Of a stretch of 42,053 nucleotides of DNA, positions 8,037 to 34,903 are shown piece after piece. How positions within the stretch are numbered: position 1 is the first letter of the stretch; each line of letters opens with the position of its first letter. A program made the position numbers and the translations under genes. Under the pieces are notes generated by a model. The model did no database searches, was not told the DNA's origin, and saw nothing but the letters and a program-made list of their open reading frames with translations. The stretch is taken from the IMG/VR virus record IMGVR_UViG_3300029268_000040, positions 1-42,053 of that record; one strand, 5' to 3'. This DNA comes from a virus.

Positions 8037-8045
8037 GTGAAAATT

Positions 8046-9473
8046 ATGGCGTTAGACATGACCCCAAATTATTTAGGTTTTGCAGAATTAGAAGCAAGAA
8101 AAGGTGGTAGCCCCATAATGCAGGCTCTTAAAACTGGCCTTCAAACCTATGGTGATGTTCAGGATTTGATCCAGAAGACACGGATAACACAAGCACAGCC
8201 TAAAGAAATAGAACAAAAATTAAAGCGTGGAGAGCAGGAAGTAAAACGTGGTGAGCAATTATTAGTCAAAGGAGAATTGGAGGCAAAATTTCTTCCTACT
8301 CAATTACAGCAAGAGCAAACAGCGCGACAATATGAAGTGGAAACTAAAAGATTGCTTTTAAAAGCTTTGCCACAAGATATAAGAAATAAATTAAGCTCAC
8401 AACAATTAAATAATATTCATCTTGGGCTACAAAACAAAGTGGCGTCTATGTCAGTTGATCAATTGCAAGAGCAAGTTGCTCAAGGTGAATTAGCAAAAAT
8501 ATATCAGACGCATTTAAATTATCCTGAAGGGAAAGACGATCAATACCAACTTTCCAGGAAAAAGCTCAAACATTACGGCATGGATTTGCCTGAAAATTTA
8601 GATGATAGTGTCATTGCCAGAGCAAAAAGTGCTTATGATACAGCACAAAGGATGGATCCATTTAATCAAGCAATGGCAAAAATAAGATTGATGAATGAGG
8701 GAAAAGTAGATGTTGCTGAACTCAAAAAAACAAACGGTGCGCAATCTGCATTTGATAAAAAAGCCGAAGGGATAAGTGCTCAATGGTTAGAACAAGACTT
8801 GCCAAATGCTGCGGCAACAGCGAATGATATTAAGATTCAAGCACAAGATATGAGAAACTCAGTTAAAGAAAATGAATGGGCTTATGGCCCAGTCGTAGGA
8901 AATGTAACTAAATTTGCATTACCTTTTGTTAATCAAGCTGATGCTAAAAGTTTAAATATAGCTTTAGATAAACTTGCTGCAACTCCTGGAGCATCAAGAG
9001 GAACCAAGGCATTGTTGTCTACAATTATTCGGGCAAAAGTTAGCGTTTCTGATCCAGTATCAGCTATTTATGGCAAGTTAGATGATATTGAAGCAGCCAC
9101 TCATATAACTCAGCAGCAGTTGAGTTTTGCTAATATGATGCGACAGAATGGGATAACTTCTAAAGCACAAATTGAGGAATCATGGGATAAGTTTTTGGGT
9201 TCACAAAAATTCAAAGATGCTCATGGAAAATTGAGAGGCGAATTGGCAGATACTTGGGATGAATATTTTACTGAACATCCCGAAGATTTACCTCAGGCTG
9301 CTAAACAAAAAATGGCTGACGACCAAAAGTTTGGAAATGCTGTCCAGACTCAACAATTAACTAACGAAGTTTTTGGAGGTGCAGCAGGACCATCAGCGCC
9401 ATTCAATAATGGAATAATTTCAGATTTCAATCCTGGATCAGCTAGTCCAAACTCTATATTAACTGGTGAATAA
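8046..9473 (+). CDS. Ejection (pilot) protein with coiled coils
   Basis: A 475-residue protein. The ATG at 8046 is chosen over the GTG at 8037 because AGGTGA sits 6 bases before it. Residues about 30-120 are rich in Lys, Glu and Gln (KLKRGEQEVKRGEQLL) and should form a coiled coil; the rest is mostly helical and soluble. There is no enzyme motif. Its place between a gp7-like gene and a large membrane-active gene matches P22 gp20 or gp16, so a DNA-injection role is inferred. The stop overlaps the next start (TAATG). Confidence 0.75.
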   Translation: MALDMTPNYLGFAELEARKGGSPIMQALKTGLQTYGDVQDLIQKTRITQAQPKEIEQKLKRGEQEVKRGEQLLVKGELEAKFLPTQLQQEQTARQYEVETKRLLLKALPQDIRNKLSSQQLNNIHLGLQNKVASMSVDQLQEQVAQGELAKIYQTHLNYPEGKDDQYQLSRKKLKHYGMDLPENLDDSVIARAKSAYDTAQRMDPFNQAMAKIRLMNEGKVDVAELKKTNGAQSAFDKKAEGISAQWLEQDLPNAAATANDIKIQAQDMRNSVKENEWAYGPVVGNVTKFALPFVNQADAKSLNIALDKLAATPGASRGTKALLSTIIRAKVSVSDPVSAIYGKLDDIEAATHITQQQLSFANMMRQNGITSKAQIEESWDKFLGSQKFKDAHGKLRGELADTWDEYFTEHPEDLPQAAKQKMADDQKFGNAVQTQQLTNEVFGGAAGPSAPFNNGIISDFNPGSASPNSILTGE

Positions 9474-12151
9474 TGACTACTAAATTATCACTTACTAAAA
9501 ATATTGGAAAGATATCGGGAATCGCTCCAGAACCCGGATATGAAAATCCGCAAATGGAACAAGGACTCGAATTTTCCAAAAAAATGGCTGATGAGGTTAA
9601 TCAAGGGAATAAAACACCGACTATAGAAGAGATATCGCCACCTCAAAGTCAGCCAACACCTTCCATTGGAGATCAATTAAAAGCTTTACGCGAACAGAGA
9701 TTAACAAAGAAGCGTGAACAAGAAGTGCAGATGACGGCACAGCCAAATGCACAAACTGAAAAACCAATAGATTATGATGCAGAGCCCCATGGTTTTGACA
9801 ATAGCGATAAAATGTCAATGCTTGGTTCTGTTTTTCTTGGTGGAGCAGTTGGATTAAGTGACATGCTCATGGGTGCTGAGCAATTATTAGGTCGAGCAGC
9901 ATCAACCAGCGCAAGATTGATCGGAAAACTCCCTGGAGTACCAGAAGAAAATTACGTTGCTCTTGCGGATTATTTTGCTGGGGCAGTTGATAGAGATACA
10001 AATTGGTATGATAGAAATGTTTCTCGTCGTAATTTGGTAAAAAATGCACGTGCTTCACACCCGGTTGTTTTCGAATTAGGTAAATTAGGTAGTAATATTG
10101 CATCAACTGCATATGTTTTGAAAGGCATGAGTATGTTGTCCGCTGGAGAAGAACTAATAGGAGCAAGTGGGGAGGCAGTAAAAGATGTCATTGCAGCCAC
10201 AGAGAGAATCGGTGGCAAAGGATCATTTGTTAAAGCAATGGGGACTGCAGTCAAGAATGCTGCAGCCAAATCGGTAATTAATGCTAGGAAAACCATAACA
10301 CCTAGCAAATTGGCTGATTGGGTGGGTGAAGGAGTTGCATTTAATGAATTACAATATGATCCAGAAAACAATCATTATATTGCTAGTGATGCGTTAGCTG
10401 GTGCGGCTGCTCTAGCATTTGGTGGCGCTGGAAAGTTAATTGGTGGAATGGCCCGGCCGCTTGCTGATGAAATTGCTAAAACGTCAAAGGAATTTGGAGT
10501 TCAACTTCCCATTTATCCGACCTTAGAAAAGATTGCCAAATGGTTACCTATGAGCGGTTATGGTAAATTAATTACCGAGCGTTCCAAACAAGTTTTTGGC
10601 TTGGCAAAAGGAGTAAAGGCAAAGATTACTGGAGAAGCAACGACTGTGATTGGTCGTGATATTGAAAAAAGATCAGCAGAGCTAAAGGGCTTGCTGCAAG
10701 ATGAAGCTATTCCATTTCATCAACGGAAAATTTATGAAGATCAATTAGGTTCATTGCAAAAACAAAAAGAGCAACTTGGAACTACTCCAGGATTTAGTCA
10801 ATTTTTGTTTGGAAAGTCTGAACAGCATTTGAGCCAGGCAAGAAAAACATATTCTGAAATGGATTCGAAGATTGTAGAAAAATTAAAAAACACCCCTGAT
10901 GTTGATACTACAAAACTTGTAGATATCGCAAATGAAATAGTTAATCAAGAAGAAGGAATAAATAAATCATTGAGAAGAAATACTTTGCTCAGGATTTCCG
11001 CTGACATTGCCGGAAAAGAATCTAGTAATGAGATGAAGGCTATTTTTTCTCAAATGAACATTACAAATCCATCAGAAATTGCGGATTATATGGAAGGTTT
11101 GTTAAATGGCAAATTATATGTACAAAATCCTGAAATATACCGTGCTTTAGCTCCACACCAGAGTCAAATAGCTGATATTTTACATGCCACAGGTGTTCCT
11201 CATGGTTCAGTTGATAAAGCGGATGTTGCCTTATTAATGAATGCTCCAAGTATGTCTCCTGAAGAACTACGAATGCATAAAACAAGGGTTGGTCAAAAGT
11301 TAGGTGATGCGACCAATTCTTATGATAAAGGAAAATTCAAAAGATTGTATGGAGCGCTTCAAAGTGCTTATGAAGGTCATATAAACAAATATGGTGATGA
11401 GGAAACATTGAAATTATTTAGAGAATCCAACCGACTTTATCATGATACCGTTAAGCCTTTGGAACACATTATTGATGAGTATAGTTCGGGTTCTAGTAAA
11501 AATGCAGACAACTTTATTTGGAAATTTCTCAAGCCTGACGAACCTAATGCCACAAGTGATTTATTAAAATTAATGCCTAAAAATGATAATACAGCAACCT
11601 TGGCGTTGAAAGCAGCAAACTTACATGAGGCTTATGATAGAGCTTATTTGAAAGGAATTGGTTTAAATCCAGTCAAATATGTCAATGAAGCTCTTAAGCT
11701 TGGGGAAACGAATAAATCACTTTATACTGAAAGTGAAATGAATACGTTTAAAGGATATCAAGAATTGGTTAATAGGATTGAAAGAATAAGTCCTGATGCT
11801 TTGGTTGAAGGAGTTGCAGAAGGCTGGCCGTCAGGAAAAGAAGCCTCTACCAAGCTCTGGAAAGAACGGGGTGTAAAAAGCACCGTAGCCGCAGCTTTAG
11901 GCGGAATAGGTCTTACCATGGGAAAAGGATTTTTAGCTCCTTTATTTTTAACTAGTTATGGTTTTGGAAAATTATCTACGTCTAAAGCTGGACGAAATAT
12001 TTTAGAGGGTTTTGCAAAACTTGGAAAAAATGCGAAAGAAGAAACGGTAAATCCATTAGTTAAAGAAGCAGTAAAATATCTAGGATTTTATCCAATTATA
12101 GAAGGTGCTCATAAATTAATTAGTAATATGAATAATTCAGGAAAACAATAA
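9473..12151 (+). CDS. Large ejection / internal virion protein
   Basis: An 892-residue protein. The N-terminal 100 residues are polar and low in complexity. Hydrophobic helices follow near 115-135 (MLGSVFLGGAVGLSDMLM) and 305-325 (ALAGAAALAFGGAGKLIGG), and again near 800-830 (TVAAALGGIGLTM). The middle is long helix with predicted coiled coil. No lysozyme or transglycosylase motif is visible. The size, the membrane-active segments and its position as last gene of the ejection cluster fit a P22 gp16-like injection protein. It overlaps both neighbours by TAATG. Confidence 0.7.
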   Translation: MTTKLSLTKNIGKISGIAPEPGYENPQMEQGLEFSKKMADEVNQGNKTPTIEEISPPQSQPTPSIGDQLKALREQRLTKKREQEVQMTAQPNAQTEKPIDYDAEPHGFDNSDKMSMLGSVFLGGAVGLSDMLMGAEQLLGRAASTSARLIGKLPGVPEENYVALADYFAGAVDRDTNWYDRNVSRRNLVKNARASHPVVFELGKLGSNIASTAYVLKGMSMLSAGEELIGASGEAVKDVIAATERIGGKGSFVKAMGTAVKNAAAKSVINARKTITPSKLADWVGEGVAFNELQYDPENNHYIASDALAGAAALAFGGAGKLIGGMARPLADEIAKTSKEFGVQLPIYPTLEKIAKWLPMSGYGKLITERSKQVFGLAKGVKAKITGEATTVIGRDIEKRSAELKGLLQDEAIPFHQRKIYEDQLGSLQKQKEQLGTTPGFSQFLFGKSEQHLSQARKTYSEMDSKIVEKLKNTPDVDTTKLVDIANEIVNQEEGINKSLRRNTLLRISADIAGKESSNEMKAIFSQMNITNPSEIADYMEGLLNGKLYVQNPEIYRALAPHQSQIADILHATGVPHGSVDKADVALLMNAPSMSPEELRMHKTRVGQKLGDATNSYDKGKFKRLYGALQSAYEGHINKYGDEETLKLFRESNRLYHDTVKPLEHIIDEYSSGSSKNADNFIWKFLKPDEPNATSDLLKLMPKNDNTATLALKAANLHEAYDRAYLKGIGLNPVKYVNEALKLGETNKSLYTESEMNTFKGYQELVNRIERISPDALVEGVAEGWPSGKEASTKLWKERGVKSTVAAALGGIGLTMGKGFLAPLFLTSYGFGKLSTSKAGRNILEGFAKLGKNAKEETVNPLVKEAVKYLGFYPIIEGAHKLISNMNNSGKQ

Positions 12152-14394: not shown

Positions 14395-17300
14395 ATGGAC
14401 AAATTACGGTTTTCTTTTCACAACCAAATTTCTTATTACATCCCTCAACAGGACGAGACAGATATTGTTTTAGCACAGAATATTGTTAGTACTGGTAATA
14501 TAGTTAATATTAATACTTCAAACTATCCCGAAATTAATATTACCGTACCTGCTTTAGCTAATATAAATGCCAATGTTCAATTACAATTAGATGCTATAAA
14601 GGCTTTATGTGTTATTTCCTGGCCTGCTCCACTTATTTTTACAGCAGGTGTCTTAACTATAAATCCTCTATATTATTTCCCATTAGTAACAGATCAAACA
14701 AATTGGAATGATGCCTACGCAGGAAGGATTGCAGCCCTTACAACAATAGGCTCGAGTGGTTCGTCTACATTTATCGCTAATACATTAAATGTACCGACCT
14801 ACACTTTAGCTGGTTTAGGCGGCCAGCCATTAAGCACTAATTTAACTTCCTTGTCTGGTCTTACTTATGCAGCTACTTCATTCGTTAAGATGACAGCAGC
14901 GGGTACGTTTGGTCTAGATACGAATGTATATTTAACTTCCTTAAGTGGTGCCGTTTTAGTTAGCCAAGTTACGCCACAGACAATAGGTGACACAACTAAT
15001 CGACTATTAATGTTGTGGGCTACGGATATTACCGTTACGAACGCTATCACGGGTTCCGTTACGGGCAATGCTGGAAGTTCTACTTACTCGTCGGCTTCAA
15101 CTATTACAAACGACACAACCAATGCTGGGACCGTTTATCCAGCTTGGTACACTGCGAATACTGGTAATTTGGCTACATACGTTTCGTCTACTAAGCTTTC
15201 ATTCGTCCCTAGTACAGGTATTTTGACATCTACAGGATTTAGTGGTCCGCTTGCCGGTAATGTAACGGGAAACGTATCAGGTTCATCAGGTTCTTGCACC
15301 GGCAATGCTGGGTCAGCTACCTATGCAAGCGCAATAACTATTGTCAATGATGGAGCAACAGCTGTTTCAGTTTATCCTACATGGGTAACAGCTAATACAG
15401 GTAATCTTGCAGAATATACTACTAGCGCAAGACTGTCATTTGTTCCGAGCACTGGGATCTTAACGGCTACTGGATTTTCCGGAGCCCTAACGGGTAATGT
15501 AACTGGTAATGCTGACACTGCTACTAATATTTATGGTGGTACAGCTAATCAGATTCCATATCAAACAGCTGCTAATACCACATCATTTATTTCTGCTGCG
15601 GCTAGCTCCGTTCTTGTTTCAAGCGCTGCTAACGTACCAAGTTGGCAATCGATTTCTAGTTTACTTGATGCTAGGTGGACAGACATACAACGCAGGGGCT
15701 TTGTAAATAACGCACAAACATCGGTATCATTCAATCCCGCTACGTATATATTTACACTTACTGACTTAACAGGAGGTACAGGCTGGAAGTATATGTATAA
15801 TGGCGTTGAATATACTATAGTAGGCAACAAAACAGCAACGCTTCCTGGTGCTCCCGTAATTCCTGCAAAAAACATTTATTTTATTTATATAGATTCAACT
15901 ATTGGTACTTTAATACAATCTACAATTGCTTGGACTTTACTAGATGGAAAATGCCCAGTAGCGATTGTTTGTTGGGACGACGCATTAACTCCCAAGTATT
16001 GGCTAATGGATGAGCGACACACATGTTTAATCGATCAGAGAGTGCATTATTATAATCACTTTACTGTTGGAACAAGGTTGCTAAACGGTGGGGTACCAAC
16101 TGGGTTTGTGATAGCTCCAGTAGTACCTGTAGACTTAGATAATACGTTTGCTATATCAGAAACCAATATTGCAGATGAAGATCTTAATTGGACTTTAGCC
16201 CAATTAGTTCAGCCAAATGGAACCAATACAGATTATGTTAGCTTTTACAGAACAGCTTCATCAACTTGGAGCTGGGTGGCTGATGCTATGCCATACTATT
16301 ATACTCCCGCGGGTTATATTAATTTTGATAATGCGGGAACGATGACTGAGGGTACTTTTAATAAGTTATATAATTCATATCTGTTATATACAAACCTTGT
16401 AGGCGCATCCAGATATATTGTAGTTAATGGGCGTAGTGAATTTTCCACTTTAGCTCTTGCCCGAGCAGAAGCTGTTTCACTCTTTTCATTTGATGGGCTC
16501 GGAATTGCGGAATTTGTAATAGCATACCAATTTACTTGGGAAACTAAAAGTACTTATTCTACTAAAGGTAAATGTAGATTAGCCGCTAATCCAGTTAGAC
16601 TTAACATACCAAATATAACAGCATCATCCGTTTCCCCTGCTGTATCTCATAATTCTTTATCTGGTCTGCAAGGGGGAACAGCTGGAGAATACTATCATTT
16701 ATCTGAAGCTCAATATACGATTGCAACACAAGCTGCTACATCTGCTTTGGCAGGCTATTTAACATCTATTGATTGGACATCATTCAATACTACAATAAAC
16801 ATAACTAACGATGTGGCTACTGCCGCTACGATGTATCCTGTATGGGTTACAGCTAATACTGGAAAATTAGCTCCTTATGTATCATCTACAAAGTTTTATT
16901 TTAATCCGAGCACTGCGTTTTTAACTGCTACTGGTGGTGTCGTAAGTCCAAAATTTGGTTTTCAACGTGGCACAGCTGGATCAGGAGGAATTAGTTGGTA
17001 TAGCTTGACAACTTATAAAGCCTGGTGCGATTACATGGCATCGGCTGCACTTGGATCTACTACTGAGGGTCCTACTCAAAATATAACACCACCGTTCGGT
17101 ACTTATGTTACAAGTTGGGCATTGCGTCGTTTTATTCAAAATACAGCAAATTATGGATTTACATGGGAGTCAGGATCATCTACTACTGCTACACCTGCAG
17201 TAATAGCAGAATTGCGCTCTAGTGATGGATTGTTTCATTCTTATGGAGCTATTATAGCTGATGGGGGATTCCGTTCAACTAGCACGGATACTATTACTGC

Positions 17301-17574
17301 TTATGCTGGTGGTGGTCAGGCTAATGCAACAGTTCTCACATCCTATGTTAATTTTGTAACTGTGTGTGCAAGCGATAATGATTCCGTTCTGTTGCTAGTT
17401 GCAATAGCAAATATGCGAGTGATAGTAAAGAATGAAAGTGCTAAAATATGTGATGTATATCCAAGGGCTAGCTCTTATATGGATGGAACAATAAACAATC
17501 CATATTCCCTTGCAGCAGGAGCAACTAAAGAATTTTATGCGGTTGATGCCACTCATTGGAAGAGCCTATTCTAA
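14395..17574 (+). CDS. Long repeat-containing tail fibre
   Basis: A 1059-residue protein rich in Thr, Ser, Ala and Asn. A module starting ND.(T/A)(T/N)A..VYP.W.TANTGNLA and ending FVPSTGIL(T)(S/A)TGFSG occurs near residues 238, 318 and, more diverged, 803. Such modules are typical of side tail fibres. Short GNVTGN/GNAGSA.YAS linkers lie between them. The C-terminal 200 residues look like a globular trimer head. No intramolecular chaperone motif was recognised. It is likely the main adsorption fibre. The lysis genes begin 15 bases after its stop. Confidence 0.85.
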   Translation: MDKLRFSFHNQISYYIPQQDETDIVLAQNIVSTGNIVNINTSNYPEINITVPALANINANVQLQLDAIKALCVISWPAPLIFTAGVLTINPLYYFPLVTDQTNWNDAYAGRIAALTTIGSSGSSTFIANTLNVPTYTLAGLGGQPLSTNLTSLSGLTYAATSFVKMTAAGTFGLDTNVYLTSLSGAVLVSQVTPQTIGDTTNRLLMLWATDITVTNAITGSVTGNAGSSTYSSASTITNDTTNAGTVYPAWYTANTGNLATYVSSTKLSFVPSTGILTSTGFSGPLAGNVTGNVSGSSGSCTGNAGSATYASAITIVNDGATAVSVYPTWVTANTGNLAEYTTSARLSFVPSTGILTATGFSGALTGNVTGNADTATNIYGGTANQIPYQTAANTTSFISAAASSVLVSSAANVPSWQSISSLLDARWTDIQRRGFVNNAQTSVSFNPATYIFTLTDLTGGTGWKYMYNGVEYTIVGNKTATLPGAPVIPAKNIYFIYIDSTIGTLIQSTIAWTLLDGKCPVAIVCWDDALTPKYWLMDERHTCLIDQRVHYYNHFTVGTRLLNGGVPTGFVIAPVVPVDLDNTFAISETNIADEDLNWTLAQLVQPNGTNTDYVSFYRTASSTWSWVADAMPYYYTPAGYINFDNAGTMTEGTFNKLYNSYLLYTNLVGASRYIVVNGRSEFSTLALARAEAVSLFSFDGLGIAEFVIAYQFTWETKSTYSTKGKCRLAANPVRLNIPNITASSVSPAVSHNSLSGLQGGTAGEYYHLSEAQYTIATQAATSALAGYLTSIDWTSFNTTINITNDVATAATMYPVWVTANTGKLAPYVSSTKFYFNPSTAFLTATGGVVSPKFGFQRGTAGSGGISWYSLTTYKAWCDYMASAALGSTTEGPTQNITPPFGTYVTSWALRRFIQNTANYGFTWESGSSTTATPAVIAELRSSDGLFHSYGAIIADGGFRSTSTDTITAYAGGGQANATVLTSYVNFVTVCASDNDSVLLLVAIANMRVIVKNESAKICDVYPRASSYMDGTINNPYSLAAGATKEFYAVDATHWKSLF

Positions 17575-32236: not shown

Positions 32237-34903
32237 ATGCTTACCCGCGAAATGTCAAAGCTGATGAAGCGTGTGGAGTATGCGGCTTCGGTCAAAGAAA
32301 ATCACAATCAAGTTATTATAGACTTAGACAACTATACTATAATCGTTCCCGATTATCCCGAGCCTACAGTATATAGGCCTACATCTACGGCCCTAGCGTT
32401 CCACAGAGCAGATGATCGCGTACGGGTGATACGTGGGCACGTAGGCAGTGGTAAGTCAACCATGATGTGTGCAGAGATTGTATTCAGAGCGGTTAAGATG
32501 GCGGCATGTAAGGACGGGATAAGGCGGAGTAGGTGGGCTATTGTCCGTAATACCTACGGCGATTTAGCCAAGACAACATTAACCACGTGGAAGATGTGGT
32601 TTGCTAACCTAGGCTCGATGAGATGGAGGGAAGGAAAAAGCTTTACAATAGATCACACATTCAATGCTATTGTTAAACAAAATGGTACTGAAGAAACGCA
32701 CAAGGTAGAGATGCAATTGCTACCCATTGCATTAGATAACGTTAGTGACGTTACCAAGCATTTAAAATCACTCGAAGTTACGGGGGTATTTTTAAATGAA
32801 CTATCAGAACTTAATCGCATGGTGCTTGATTTCTTCTCTGGTGGCCGTCTTCCTCGGTTTCCTAGCCTTAAAGATATGCCCGAAGGTGTTGCGTACTGGT
32901 GCGGCATCTTTGCTGATACGAACCCACCTGAGGTTTCGAGCTGGATATATAAATTATTTGAAGTTGATAAGCCGCAAGAATATACAATGTTCGTACAGCC
33001 ACCAGCAGTATTGAAGGAGAATGATAAATATATAATTAACCCTAATGCGGAGAACCTTAAAAATATTCAAAATGGTGAGCAAGAATATATAAAGATGACT
33101 TGGGGCAAATCAGAAAGTTTTATACAAGTTTATCTTATGGGTGAATATGGAACGTTGAGTGATGAGAAAAGAGTCTATTATAGTTATAACGATGATATTC
33201 ATAGTAGTGATCATATCGTTATTGATTATAAATCACCTTTGATTATTGGCGTTGACCTAGGCACTGTTGCACCTGCTTTTATAATCGGACAGATGCAGGG
33301 GCCGGTGCTTGTTGGTATCAAAGAATTTTGCGGAGAGTTCACGACAATTAGGGAAATGTGTAATGATGCTGTAATGCCTTGGCTTCATGATAATTGCAAA
33401 GGGATGAGGCTTGGGGCGGTAGTGTTTGATATCGCGAAAACCGACCATGGCGATGTTCAGCTGCGCGAATTTTTCGGTTCTGTAGTTATTCCTGCGCAAA
33501 CTAATAATATTTCACAGAGAATAGACGCAGTAGCAAAACGTTTATCTCGTTTGTCACAGGGCAAGCCTTTACTTGTTATCAGTCGTTCTGGTTGTCCGGA
33601 ATTACGTAAAGGATTTAATGGAAAATATTATTATAGAAGAGTAAAAATAATTGGAGAAGAGAAATTTACAGAGGAACCTTACAAAAATCATCCATTCAGC
33701 GATTGTTTAATCGCTGGAACTAAAGTAATGATGGCCGATTGCTCAGAAATGAATATTGAAGATATAAAGCCCGATATGATGGTATTAACACCAAGCGGAG
33801 CACGCAAAGTAACCCATGCATGGTTGGCGCGAAAGAATGCAGTTGTTTATGAATATACGTTCAGTAATGGATCAACGTTAGTAGCTACGCCAGAGCATAA
33901 GATATTTACAGATCGTGGGTGGATAGAAATAAATAAGTTGACCATTAATGATATGTTATTAAGTATTAATAATAAGGGTTGCTCATGGTTAAAGTTGTTT
34001 GTAAATTTTGCAAAAAAGAACTTGAAACATCTCAATGGAAGATTAATCACGGCGAAGGAAAACATTGCTCGCGCAATTGTGCATTTGCGGGTAGAAGAAA
34101 AAAATATGGCATTGAGATTGACGATAAATGGTTCACGCTTAGTAGTAATGGAAAATATTATGAAAACAAAAATGGAAAAACCACAATTGAATTACATAGA
34201 TATATTTGGGAAAAATACAATGGGAAGATTCCAAAGAAGATGTGCATACATCACAAGGATGGTAACAGCCTTAATAATACCATTGAAAATTTGGAACTTA
34301 TGTCCACTATTGAACACAACCGTATGCATACAAAAGAACGATATATACAACATCCAGAGCTCAAAAAACATGCCCTTGATGCCGCTAGAACTTCGGGGAA
34401 GGCTTGGCATGGAACTAAAGAGGGTTTGGAGTGGCACAGCAAAAATGGTAAAAAATCTTGGCTTAAAAGAACAAAGAAAGTATTTAAATGTTGGAGATGT
34501 GGAAAAGAATATGAAGCTTATAGCGCAGGATATTGCTCCTCAGTTTGTAGTGAAAAAGAAAGATACAGAAAGCTTATTAATGATAAAGTTAAAAAATGCG
34601 TTATATGTAATAAAGAATTTTTTGTTCATAAACGTACAAAGACCAAAACATGTGGCCACACTTGTAGATACGCGCTTATGCTCAGAACTAAAAGACGTAT
34701 ACGATATAACGGTTGAAGATGAACATTGCTTTTTTGCTAATGGACTACTTGTACATAATTGTCACGACGCATGGCAGTATATTAATCTACATGTCAACTA
34801 TGAGACAGAATTATCGCATACATTTGATCCAAAGGCAGAAGCTCTAGAAAAGTGGGAATTTAAAAAGTTTAGGAATAAAGCCGATGGTGTGACAGGTTAT
34901 TAA
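32237..34903 (+). CDS. terL: Terminase large subunit interrupted by an intein
   Basis: An 888-residue precursor. The ATPase has Walker A GHVGSGKS (67-74) and Walker B VTGVFLNELSE (181-191). The RNase H-like nuclease has IIGVDLG (D340), GAVVFDIAK (D398) and a third acid in CHDAWQY (D844). The last motif is split: HPFSD, then the intein (residues 490-841), then CHDAWQY. Removing it leaves a 536-residue terminase of normal size. The intein site, inside a catalytic motif, is typical of inteins. An HNH gene lies in another frame within the intein. The protein packages DNA through the portal and cuts the concatemer. Confidence 0.95.
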   Translation: MLTREMSKLMKRVEYAASVKENHNQVIIDLDNYTIIVPDYPEPTVYRPTSTALAFHRADDRVRVIRGHVGSGKSTMMCAEIVFRAVKMAACKDGIRRSRWAIVRNTYGDLAKTTLTTWKMWFANLGSMRWREGKSFTIDHTFNAIVKQNGTEETHKVEMQLLPIALDNVSDVTKHLKSLEVTGVFLNELSELNRMVLDFFSGGRLPRFPSLKDMPEGVAYWCGIFADTNPPEVSSWIYKLFEVDKPQEYTMFVQPPAVLKENDKYIINPNAENLKNIQNGEQEYIKMTWGKSESFIQVYLMGEYGTLSDEKRVYYSYNDDIHSSDHIVIDYKSPLIIGVDLGTVAPAFIIGQMQGPVLVGIKEFCGEFTTIREMCNDAVMPWLHDNCKGMRLGAVVFDIAKTDHGDVQLREFFGSVVIPAQTNNISQRIDAVAKRLSRLSQGKPLLVISRSGCPELRKGFNGKYYYRRVKIIGEEKFTEEPYKNHPFSDCLIAGTKVMMADCSEMNIEDIKPDMMVLTPSGARKVTHAWLARKNAVVYEYTFSNGSTLVATPEHKIFTDRGWIEINKLTINDMLLSINNKGCSWLKLFVNFAKKNLKHLNGRLITAKENIARAIVHLRVEEKNMALRLTINGSRLVVMENIMKTKMEKPQLNYIDIFGKNTMGRFQRRCAYITRMVTALIIPLKIWNLCPLLNTTVCIQKNDIYNIQSSKNMPLMPLELRGRLGMELKRVWSGTAKMVKNLGLKEQRKYLNVGDVEKNMKLIAQDIAPQFVVKKKDTESLLMIKLKNALYVIKNFLFINVQRPKHVATLVDTRLCSELKDVYDITVEDEHCFFANGLLVHNCHDAWQYINLHVNYETELSHTFDPKAEALEKWEFKKFRNKADGVTGY
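33704..34759 (+). mobile_element. Intein (352 residues) in terL with an out-of-frame HNH insert
   Basis: Block A: Cys1 in CLIAGTKVM. Block B: GSTLVATPEHKIFT (T62, H65). Blocks F and G: VYDITVEDEHCFFANGLLVHN, with His351 and Asn352, then Cys+1 of the extein. So all Hint splicing residues are present. In the intein frame, the 245 residues between blocks B and F match no endonuclease; they read through the region where a separate frame encodes the HNH protein. The frame stays open throughout, so splicing should still be possible. Confidence 0.92.
33985..34716 (+). CDS. HNH homing endonuclease encoded out of frame inside the intein
   Basis: A 243-residue protein in the -1 (+2) frame of terL. The ATG at 33985 has AAGGG 6 bases upstream. 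CKFCKK and CSRNC form an N-terminal zinc finger; RYIWEKYNG precedes the HNH core CIHHKDGNSLNNTIENLELMSTIEHNRMH (H89, H90, N102, H111, H115). Two more Cys4 fingers follow (CWRCGK...CSSVC, CVICNK...CGHTC). The stop lies within intein block F. It would probably cut intein-less terL alleles and spread the element. Confidence 0.92.
   Translation: MVKVVCKFCKKELETSQWKINHGEGKHCSRNCAFAGRRKKYGIEIDDKWFTLSSNGKYYENKNGKTTIELHRYIWEKYNGKIPKKMCIHHKDGNSLNNTIENLELMSTIEHNRMHTKERYIQHPELKKHALDAARTSGKAWHGTKEGLEWHSKNGKKSWLKRTKKVFKCWRCGKEYEAYSAGYCSSVCSEKERYRKLINDKVKKCVICNKEFFVHKRTKTKTCGHTCRYALMLRTKRRIRYNG

Follow-up and report, generated by a model that had tools for sequence, protein, structure and literature searches.

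An HNH endonuclease gene nested out of frame within the terL intein of a virus, and the distribution of its relatives

Introduction

Canonical large inteins, such as PI-SceI, combine a Hint splicing domain and a homing endonuclease in a single element. The endonuclease is a domain of the same polypeptide, and its production is accordingly tied to that of the host protein. Several other arrangements are on record. Split inteins have reportedly been found in fractured genes together with free-standing endonucleases (Dassa et al., 2009); in these, the host gene is divided into two ORFs and the endonuclease ORF lies between the intein halves. The ShiLan domain is an out-of-frame HNH insertion, hidden in a phage DNA methylase gene which stays open, with a mobile distribution but without intein splicing blocks and with no known splicing (Arsenault, Gosselin and Gogarten, 2025; PMC11855218). 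Finally, a 2015 report mentions in a single sentence that in all annotated brucellaphages the gene for the terminase large subunit, terL, contains an intein with an HNH encoded out of frame (PMC4422536). That report concerns one closely related phage group and, in the relevant passages, contains no class, register, selection test or mechanism.

The window analysed here, that is, the whole stretch of 42,053 nucleotides of IMG/VR virus record IMGVR_UViG_3300029268_000040, contains a terL gene which resembles each of these systems in part. As in canonical large inteins, a Hint splicing domain and a putative homing endonuclease share one element, but the endonuclease is encoded in another reading frame. 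As in the case of ShiLan, the out-of-frame HNH is hidden, the host phage gene stays open and the distribution is that of a mobile element, but in the window the splicing domain is complete. Fourteen relatives from the same HNH family have the endonuclease ORF between the intein halves in terL, as in fractured genes, whereas the precursor in the window is one continuous ORF overlapping the endonuclease. The layout of the brucellaphage terL, with an HNH gene out of frame inside the intein, is like that of the window, although homology between the two HNH proteins has not been established and two further HNH queries brought in no brucellaphage. An initial sequence-only reading, which did not know the nested arrangement as an established class, has to be amended: isolated instances were already on record. 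We did not find the arrangement described as a class in the literature searched, with the limitation that a preprint on non-canonical actinobacteriophage inteins (bioRxiv 2025.01.02.630785, ref. 7 of PMC11855218) may overlap with the present work. The locus is best regarded as representing a real and widespread kind of selfish element rather than a sequencing error, with splicing and homing inferred.

Organization of the terL locus

The terL-like ORF (positions 32237–34903; 888 aa; plus strand, as are all features described below) has no interruption and remains open through a complete intein of 352 aa (33704–34759). The N-extein (32237–33703) comprises the ATPase and most of the nuclease domain and matches the terminase large subunit family phrog_2 (8e-23), whereas the C-extein (34760–34903, including the stop codon) begins with Cys+1, the position occupied by Ile in the empty allele of a related TerL, locus L149. 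Relative to the latter, the intein is an exact 352-aa insertion. The Pfam profile PF14890 (Intein_splicing) matches the terL frame and spans the whole intein (E-values of 2.8e-16 to 6e-16), and both intein ends were located in this frame by NCBIfam profiles. All motifs of a class 1 intein are present, namely, Cys1 at 33704, the block B T..H motif (TPEH), the C-terminal HN and Cys+1 (HN/C at 34754–34762), with Asn352 encoded by 34757–34759; C1, H65 and N352 are invariant among 82 aligned inteins.

Structural modelling supports a Hint fold for the two ends of the intein. In the AlphaFold2 model, the N-terminal splicing half (blocks A and B, with Cys1 and T..H; 33704–33967) has pLDDT values of ~97 for residues 1–80 and 89 for residues 81–90, and the C-terminal half (blocks F and G, ending with His-Asn; 34661–34759), which also matches TIGR01443 (9e-8), has values of ~94–98 from residue 321 onwards. 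The top Foldseek matches of the model are the gp41-1 and RecA inteins (E-value of 1e-5). The linker between the halves, for which the stretch 33985–34660 is the same DNA as the HNH gene, has no known fold and pLDDT values mostly of 40–70. The same picture was obtained for 67 inteins of the family (loci from public records were left out of this set), with splicing halves at ~97 and the overprinted linker mostly at 40–70. The splicing blocks are hence predicted to form a confident Hint fold and the overprinted linker peptide is predicted to be disordered. Elsewhere in the window, four large ORFs of 478–1059 aa (26–2923, 8037–9473, 9473–12151 and 14395–17574) have no PHROG or Pfam match.

The nested HNH gene

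The HNH gene, encoding a putative homing endonuclease of 243 aa, is nested in the intein in the +2/−1 frame and extends from an ATG at 33985 (or, alternatively, a TTG at 33979) to a TGA at 34714–34716, which lies within intein block F. The Pfam domain HNH_3 (PF13392; E-value of 3.5e-16) matches this frame only, and the same frame is matched by the HNH endonuclease family phrog_15471 (1.3e-25). Residues H89, H90, N98, N102 and H111, which are invariant across the HNH family, are all present. The structure model of the protein is confident (88.5), and its best match among PDB folds, albeit with a marginal E-value of 3.7e-3, is I-HmuI, the HNH homing endonuclease of a phage group I intron.

A Shine-Dalgarno-like AAGGG (33974–33978) precedes the ATG by 6 nt, with a duplex energy of −5.1 kcal/mol, similar to that of terL's own site (−4.7). 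Across the family, Shine-Dalgarno matches of ≥5 nt are found at 32% of the HNH starts versus 8% in the background, and a start codon is present shortly before the core in almost all nested HNH genes. Matches of ≥4 nt are recognizable in only about half of the loci (background expectation, 28%), and consequently start usage remains uncertain for many members. Many low-GC members lack a Shine-Dalgarno match, and some relatives reside in genomes of Bacteroidota, which use Shine-Dalgarno sequences only weakly.

The sequence-only reading had proposed an intein with an out-of-frame HNH in terL, with the splicing blocks Cys1, TPEH, His-Asn and Cys+1, and with an HNH gene at 33985–34716 in the −1 (+2) frame, equipped with its own AAGGG site and terminating in block F. 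All of these claims held: the ORFs, the intein blocks and the HNH profile were confirmed in separate frames, and the blocks themselves by Pfam, NCBIfam and alignment, with the small correction that the HNH frame is open from 33976, the start being at 33985 (or 33979).

Distribution of relatives

Searches using tblastn with HNH and terL queries revealed the same layout, register and TerL site in Acinetobacter phage Highwayman, Rhodobacteraceae phage MD07, Tetrasphaera phage TJE1 and a faecal phage contig. For a broader survey, an HNH-only profile, blind to the frame of the surrounding gene, was applied to IMG/VR and GTDB genomes, and the N- and C-terminal intein blocks were then placed by profile; the scan was limited to 80 viral loci, so that the counts represent a sample rather than a census. 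The layout recurs in ~90 other viral or prophage-like sequences. Among 93 loci in which the TerL/intein frame is open past the HNH, the HNH is in the +2 register in 91, in +1 in two and in frame in none. Homologues with the HNH in frame, leaving this contig as the only exception, would have refuted the nested reading; they were looked for among these loci and not found. Of 80 exteins scanned, most match terminase large subunit families, and the sequences around the insertion sites, such as DNH|C..DA.RY or HDD|C, look like the nuclease motif of TerL. The two nested relatives in +1, L031 and L065, use the register that is intrinsically harder to keep open.

The nested layout is one of several in this HNH family. 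In the 14 fractured loci, which are additional to the 93, TerL-N with intein-N, the HNH, and intein-C with TerL-C form separate ORFs, and ~20 (18–20) relatives are free-standing HNH genes, many of which directly adjoin terL. The HNH tree mixes nested, split and free-standing states; given its strongly supported branches, the nested state must have changed four or more times. The Prevotellaceae contig L103 groups with nested relatives in a well-supported clade. Its ORFs for intein-N and intein-C are in different frames and share a short overlap; this might be a recent frame break towards the split layout or else a sequencing indel.

Selection on the open intein frame

The HNH gene of the window has no stops in the intein register and 39 in the third register. 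When its codons were reshuffled synonymously, the intein register contained 5.3 stops on average and was stop-free in only 2 of 20,000 shuffles (p ~1e-4). The overlap is therefore unlikely to be due to chance even for this one gene, and the family-wide evidence is far stronger. The sequence-only estimate of ~7 in a million for a chance opening thus held in part: the shuffling support is weaker but chance remains an unlikely explanation.

In the family, 105 loci have an intein N block, and in 90 of them the +2 register is open; among the 20 loci lacking this block, it is open in none (Fisher p of 5e-14). Nested genes contain no stops in the intein register, compared with a mean of 2.05 after synonymous shuffling. 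Leu, Ile and Val codons ending in A or G are never found before an A-initial codon in nested genes (0/432 versus 113/199 in free or split genes), and the same holds for Met before an A-initial codon, which forces a stop (0/123 versus 31/85). These codon-avoidance counts are partly circular, given that the nested class is defined by the open frame, but the contrast of 90/105 versus 0/20 is not. The free-standing HNH genes contain a mean of 6.6 stops in the +2 register versus 22 in the other, i.e., HNH genes of this family have about threefold fewer stops in +2 than in +1. We infer that this bias makes an open overlap easier to reach and is in part why +2 dominates.

The two overlapping frames are not equally constrained. 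Between related pairs, substitutions in the overlap follow the HNH frame, being concentrated at the third codon position of the HNH, corresponding to the second of the intein, and identity is 0.67 in the HNH frame versus 0.44 in the poorly conserved intein frame. The substitution pattern and identities, together with the disorder predicted for the linker and the confident HNH model, indicate that the HNH is the constrained protein and that the linker apparently only needs to be open. The notion that two proteins are kept in one stretch is thus supported in an amended form, in which what is preserved of the intein frame appears to be its openness and not a functional peptide. Statistically, the data support selection that removes stops from the terL frame while the linker peptide drifts.

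Empty alleles and mobility

The TerL of L149, which lacks the intein, is 69% identical to the spliced TerL of the window, gap-free and co-linear over 536/536 residues, and the junction is also crossed by alignments of 14 other phage TerLs. For the closest nested pairs, changes per codon position are more frequent in the exteins (0.35/0.29/0.57) than in the inserted element, as gauged by the HNH (0.16/0.13/0.28). The greater divergence of the exteins fits horizontal movement of the element between unlike TerLs. We found no close relative of the window with the same element, and the recent activity of the window copy therefore cannot be judged.

Proposed mechanism and alternative explanations

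We consider it likely that TerL is spliced by a mini-intein and that homing is driven by an overprinted HNH gene with a start of its own. The layout, the register, the absence of stops where an intein is present, the constraint on the HNH frame and the existence of empty alleles are shown by the results above; splicing, HNH expression and DNA cutting are inferred. Under this scenario, a mobile intein occupies a conserved nuclease-motif site of phage TerL, and its two Hint halves would splice TerL post-translationally. The DNA of the linker would double as a complete HNH homing endonuclease gene in the +2/−1 frame, with its own putative initiation site. In co-infected cells, the free HNH may then cut intein-free terL where the intein would insert, and the whole element would be copied in by repair. 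The terL frame would have to stay free of stops or else TerL would be lost, such that stops are selected out and the linker peptide drifts.

The first rival explanation is that the HNH is not translated from its own start but by programmed −1 ribosomal frameshifting from the intein frame, yielding a TerL-N/intein-N/HNH fusion. The window does contain an A AAA AAG heptamer (34012–34018) in the right phase for a −1 shift from the intein into the HNH frame; this is the heptamer known from dnaX. Slippery heptamers are also somewhat more common near HNH starts (1.97 versus 0.71 per kb). However, a suitable heptamer is present in only 12 of 83 nested loci and is not conserved, whereas the HNH starts are enriched for Shine-Dalgarno sequences and possess the start codon described above. 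Hence, we regard frameshifting as very unlikely.

Secondly, the HNH could be mainly a packaging partner nuclease of TerL that stays in or beside terL so that the two are inherited together, homing being at most an additional function. In some phages, the packaging motor is known to include an HNH protein (Kala et al., 2014, cited in PMC4422536), and many of the free-standing relatives adjoin terL. Against this possibility, the element is located exactly within an intein, occurs patchily, with intein-free relatives, and has diverged less than the gene that hosts it, all of which is the behaviour of a mobile element. A packaging role thus appears highly improbable, although it is not excluded.

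An assembly error or compensating indels in an ordinary in-frame intein–HNH fusion, two alternatives left by the sequence-only reading, are all but excluded by recurrence, judging from relatives and without raw reads: the same register is shared by 91 loci, among them those of phages TJE1, Highwayman and MD07, of genomes from bacterial isolates and of numerous independent metagenome contigs, and the survey contains no in-frame relative. Four further candidates were rejected: a large intein with an endonuclease domain (the HNH is in the +2 frame rather than that of the splicing domain, and 0/93 contiguous relatives are in frame), a fractured gene or split intein in the window (terL is one ORF, although split relatives exist), a ShiLan-type insertion (splicing blocks are present) and a group I intron with an HNH gene (I-HmuI is intron-encoded, whereas the window gave no Rfam match at gathering scores and nine loci with a free-standing HNH gave no Rfam match either).

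Implications and further observations

A bolder reading is that nested TerL inteins represent a large, hitherto unrecognized class of mobile elements, in which the splicing domain and the endonuclease are decoupled by overprinting in a near-fixed register (91:2:0) and which exchanges states with the split and free-standing layouts of the same HNH family; we lean towards this view, without considering it settled. In the nested element, the two functions are encoded by the same DNA but reside in different proteins, which allows each to change its expression, or to decay, independently of the other. The ~90 nested loci, with their free-standing relatives as controls, amount to a replicated natural experiment on long overlapping genes and suggest a possible route between the nested, split and free-standing layouts. 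The elements are also a possible source of mini-inteins tolerating very long linkers.

Under standard annotation, which assigns a single ORF to each locus, homing endonucleases in phage terL stay hidden. A family of unknown function, phrog_35162, matches the overprinted intein frame of the window (34199–34768; terL residues 655–844), which suggests that shadow peptides of nested HNH genes may sit in protein family databases as families.

Some loci show other configurations around the terL 3′ end. In Exiguobacterium phage vB_EauM-23 (L008, 1556–3731), terL is apparently interrupted at the same site, with TerL ending in ..NNHSMAA and a CDATRYAMEMDMRP stretch following the HNH ORF; neither intein blocks nor an Rfam intron match were found there. 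In L094 (3441–4182) and L054 (3474–4054), a free-standing HNH lies downstream of an intact TerL and is followed by an apparent duplicate of the TerL C-terminus (..RYYVMTAARQYNRWVV and ..RYFVYTVARQLNKWVI in the former; ..RYTANSMLHHKLQELGIP and ..RYTANAMLSYKLQELGIP in the latter), as if, possibly, the HNH gene had brought with it a replacement terL 3′ end.
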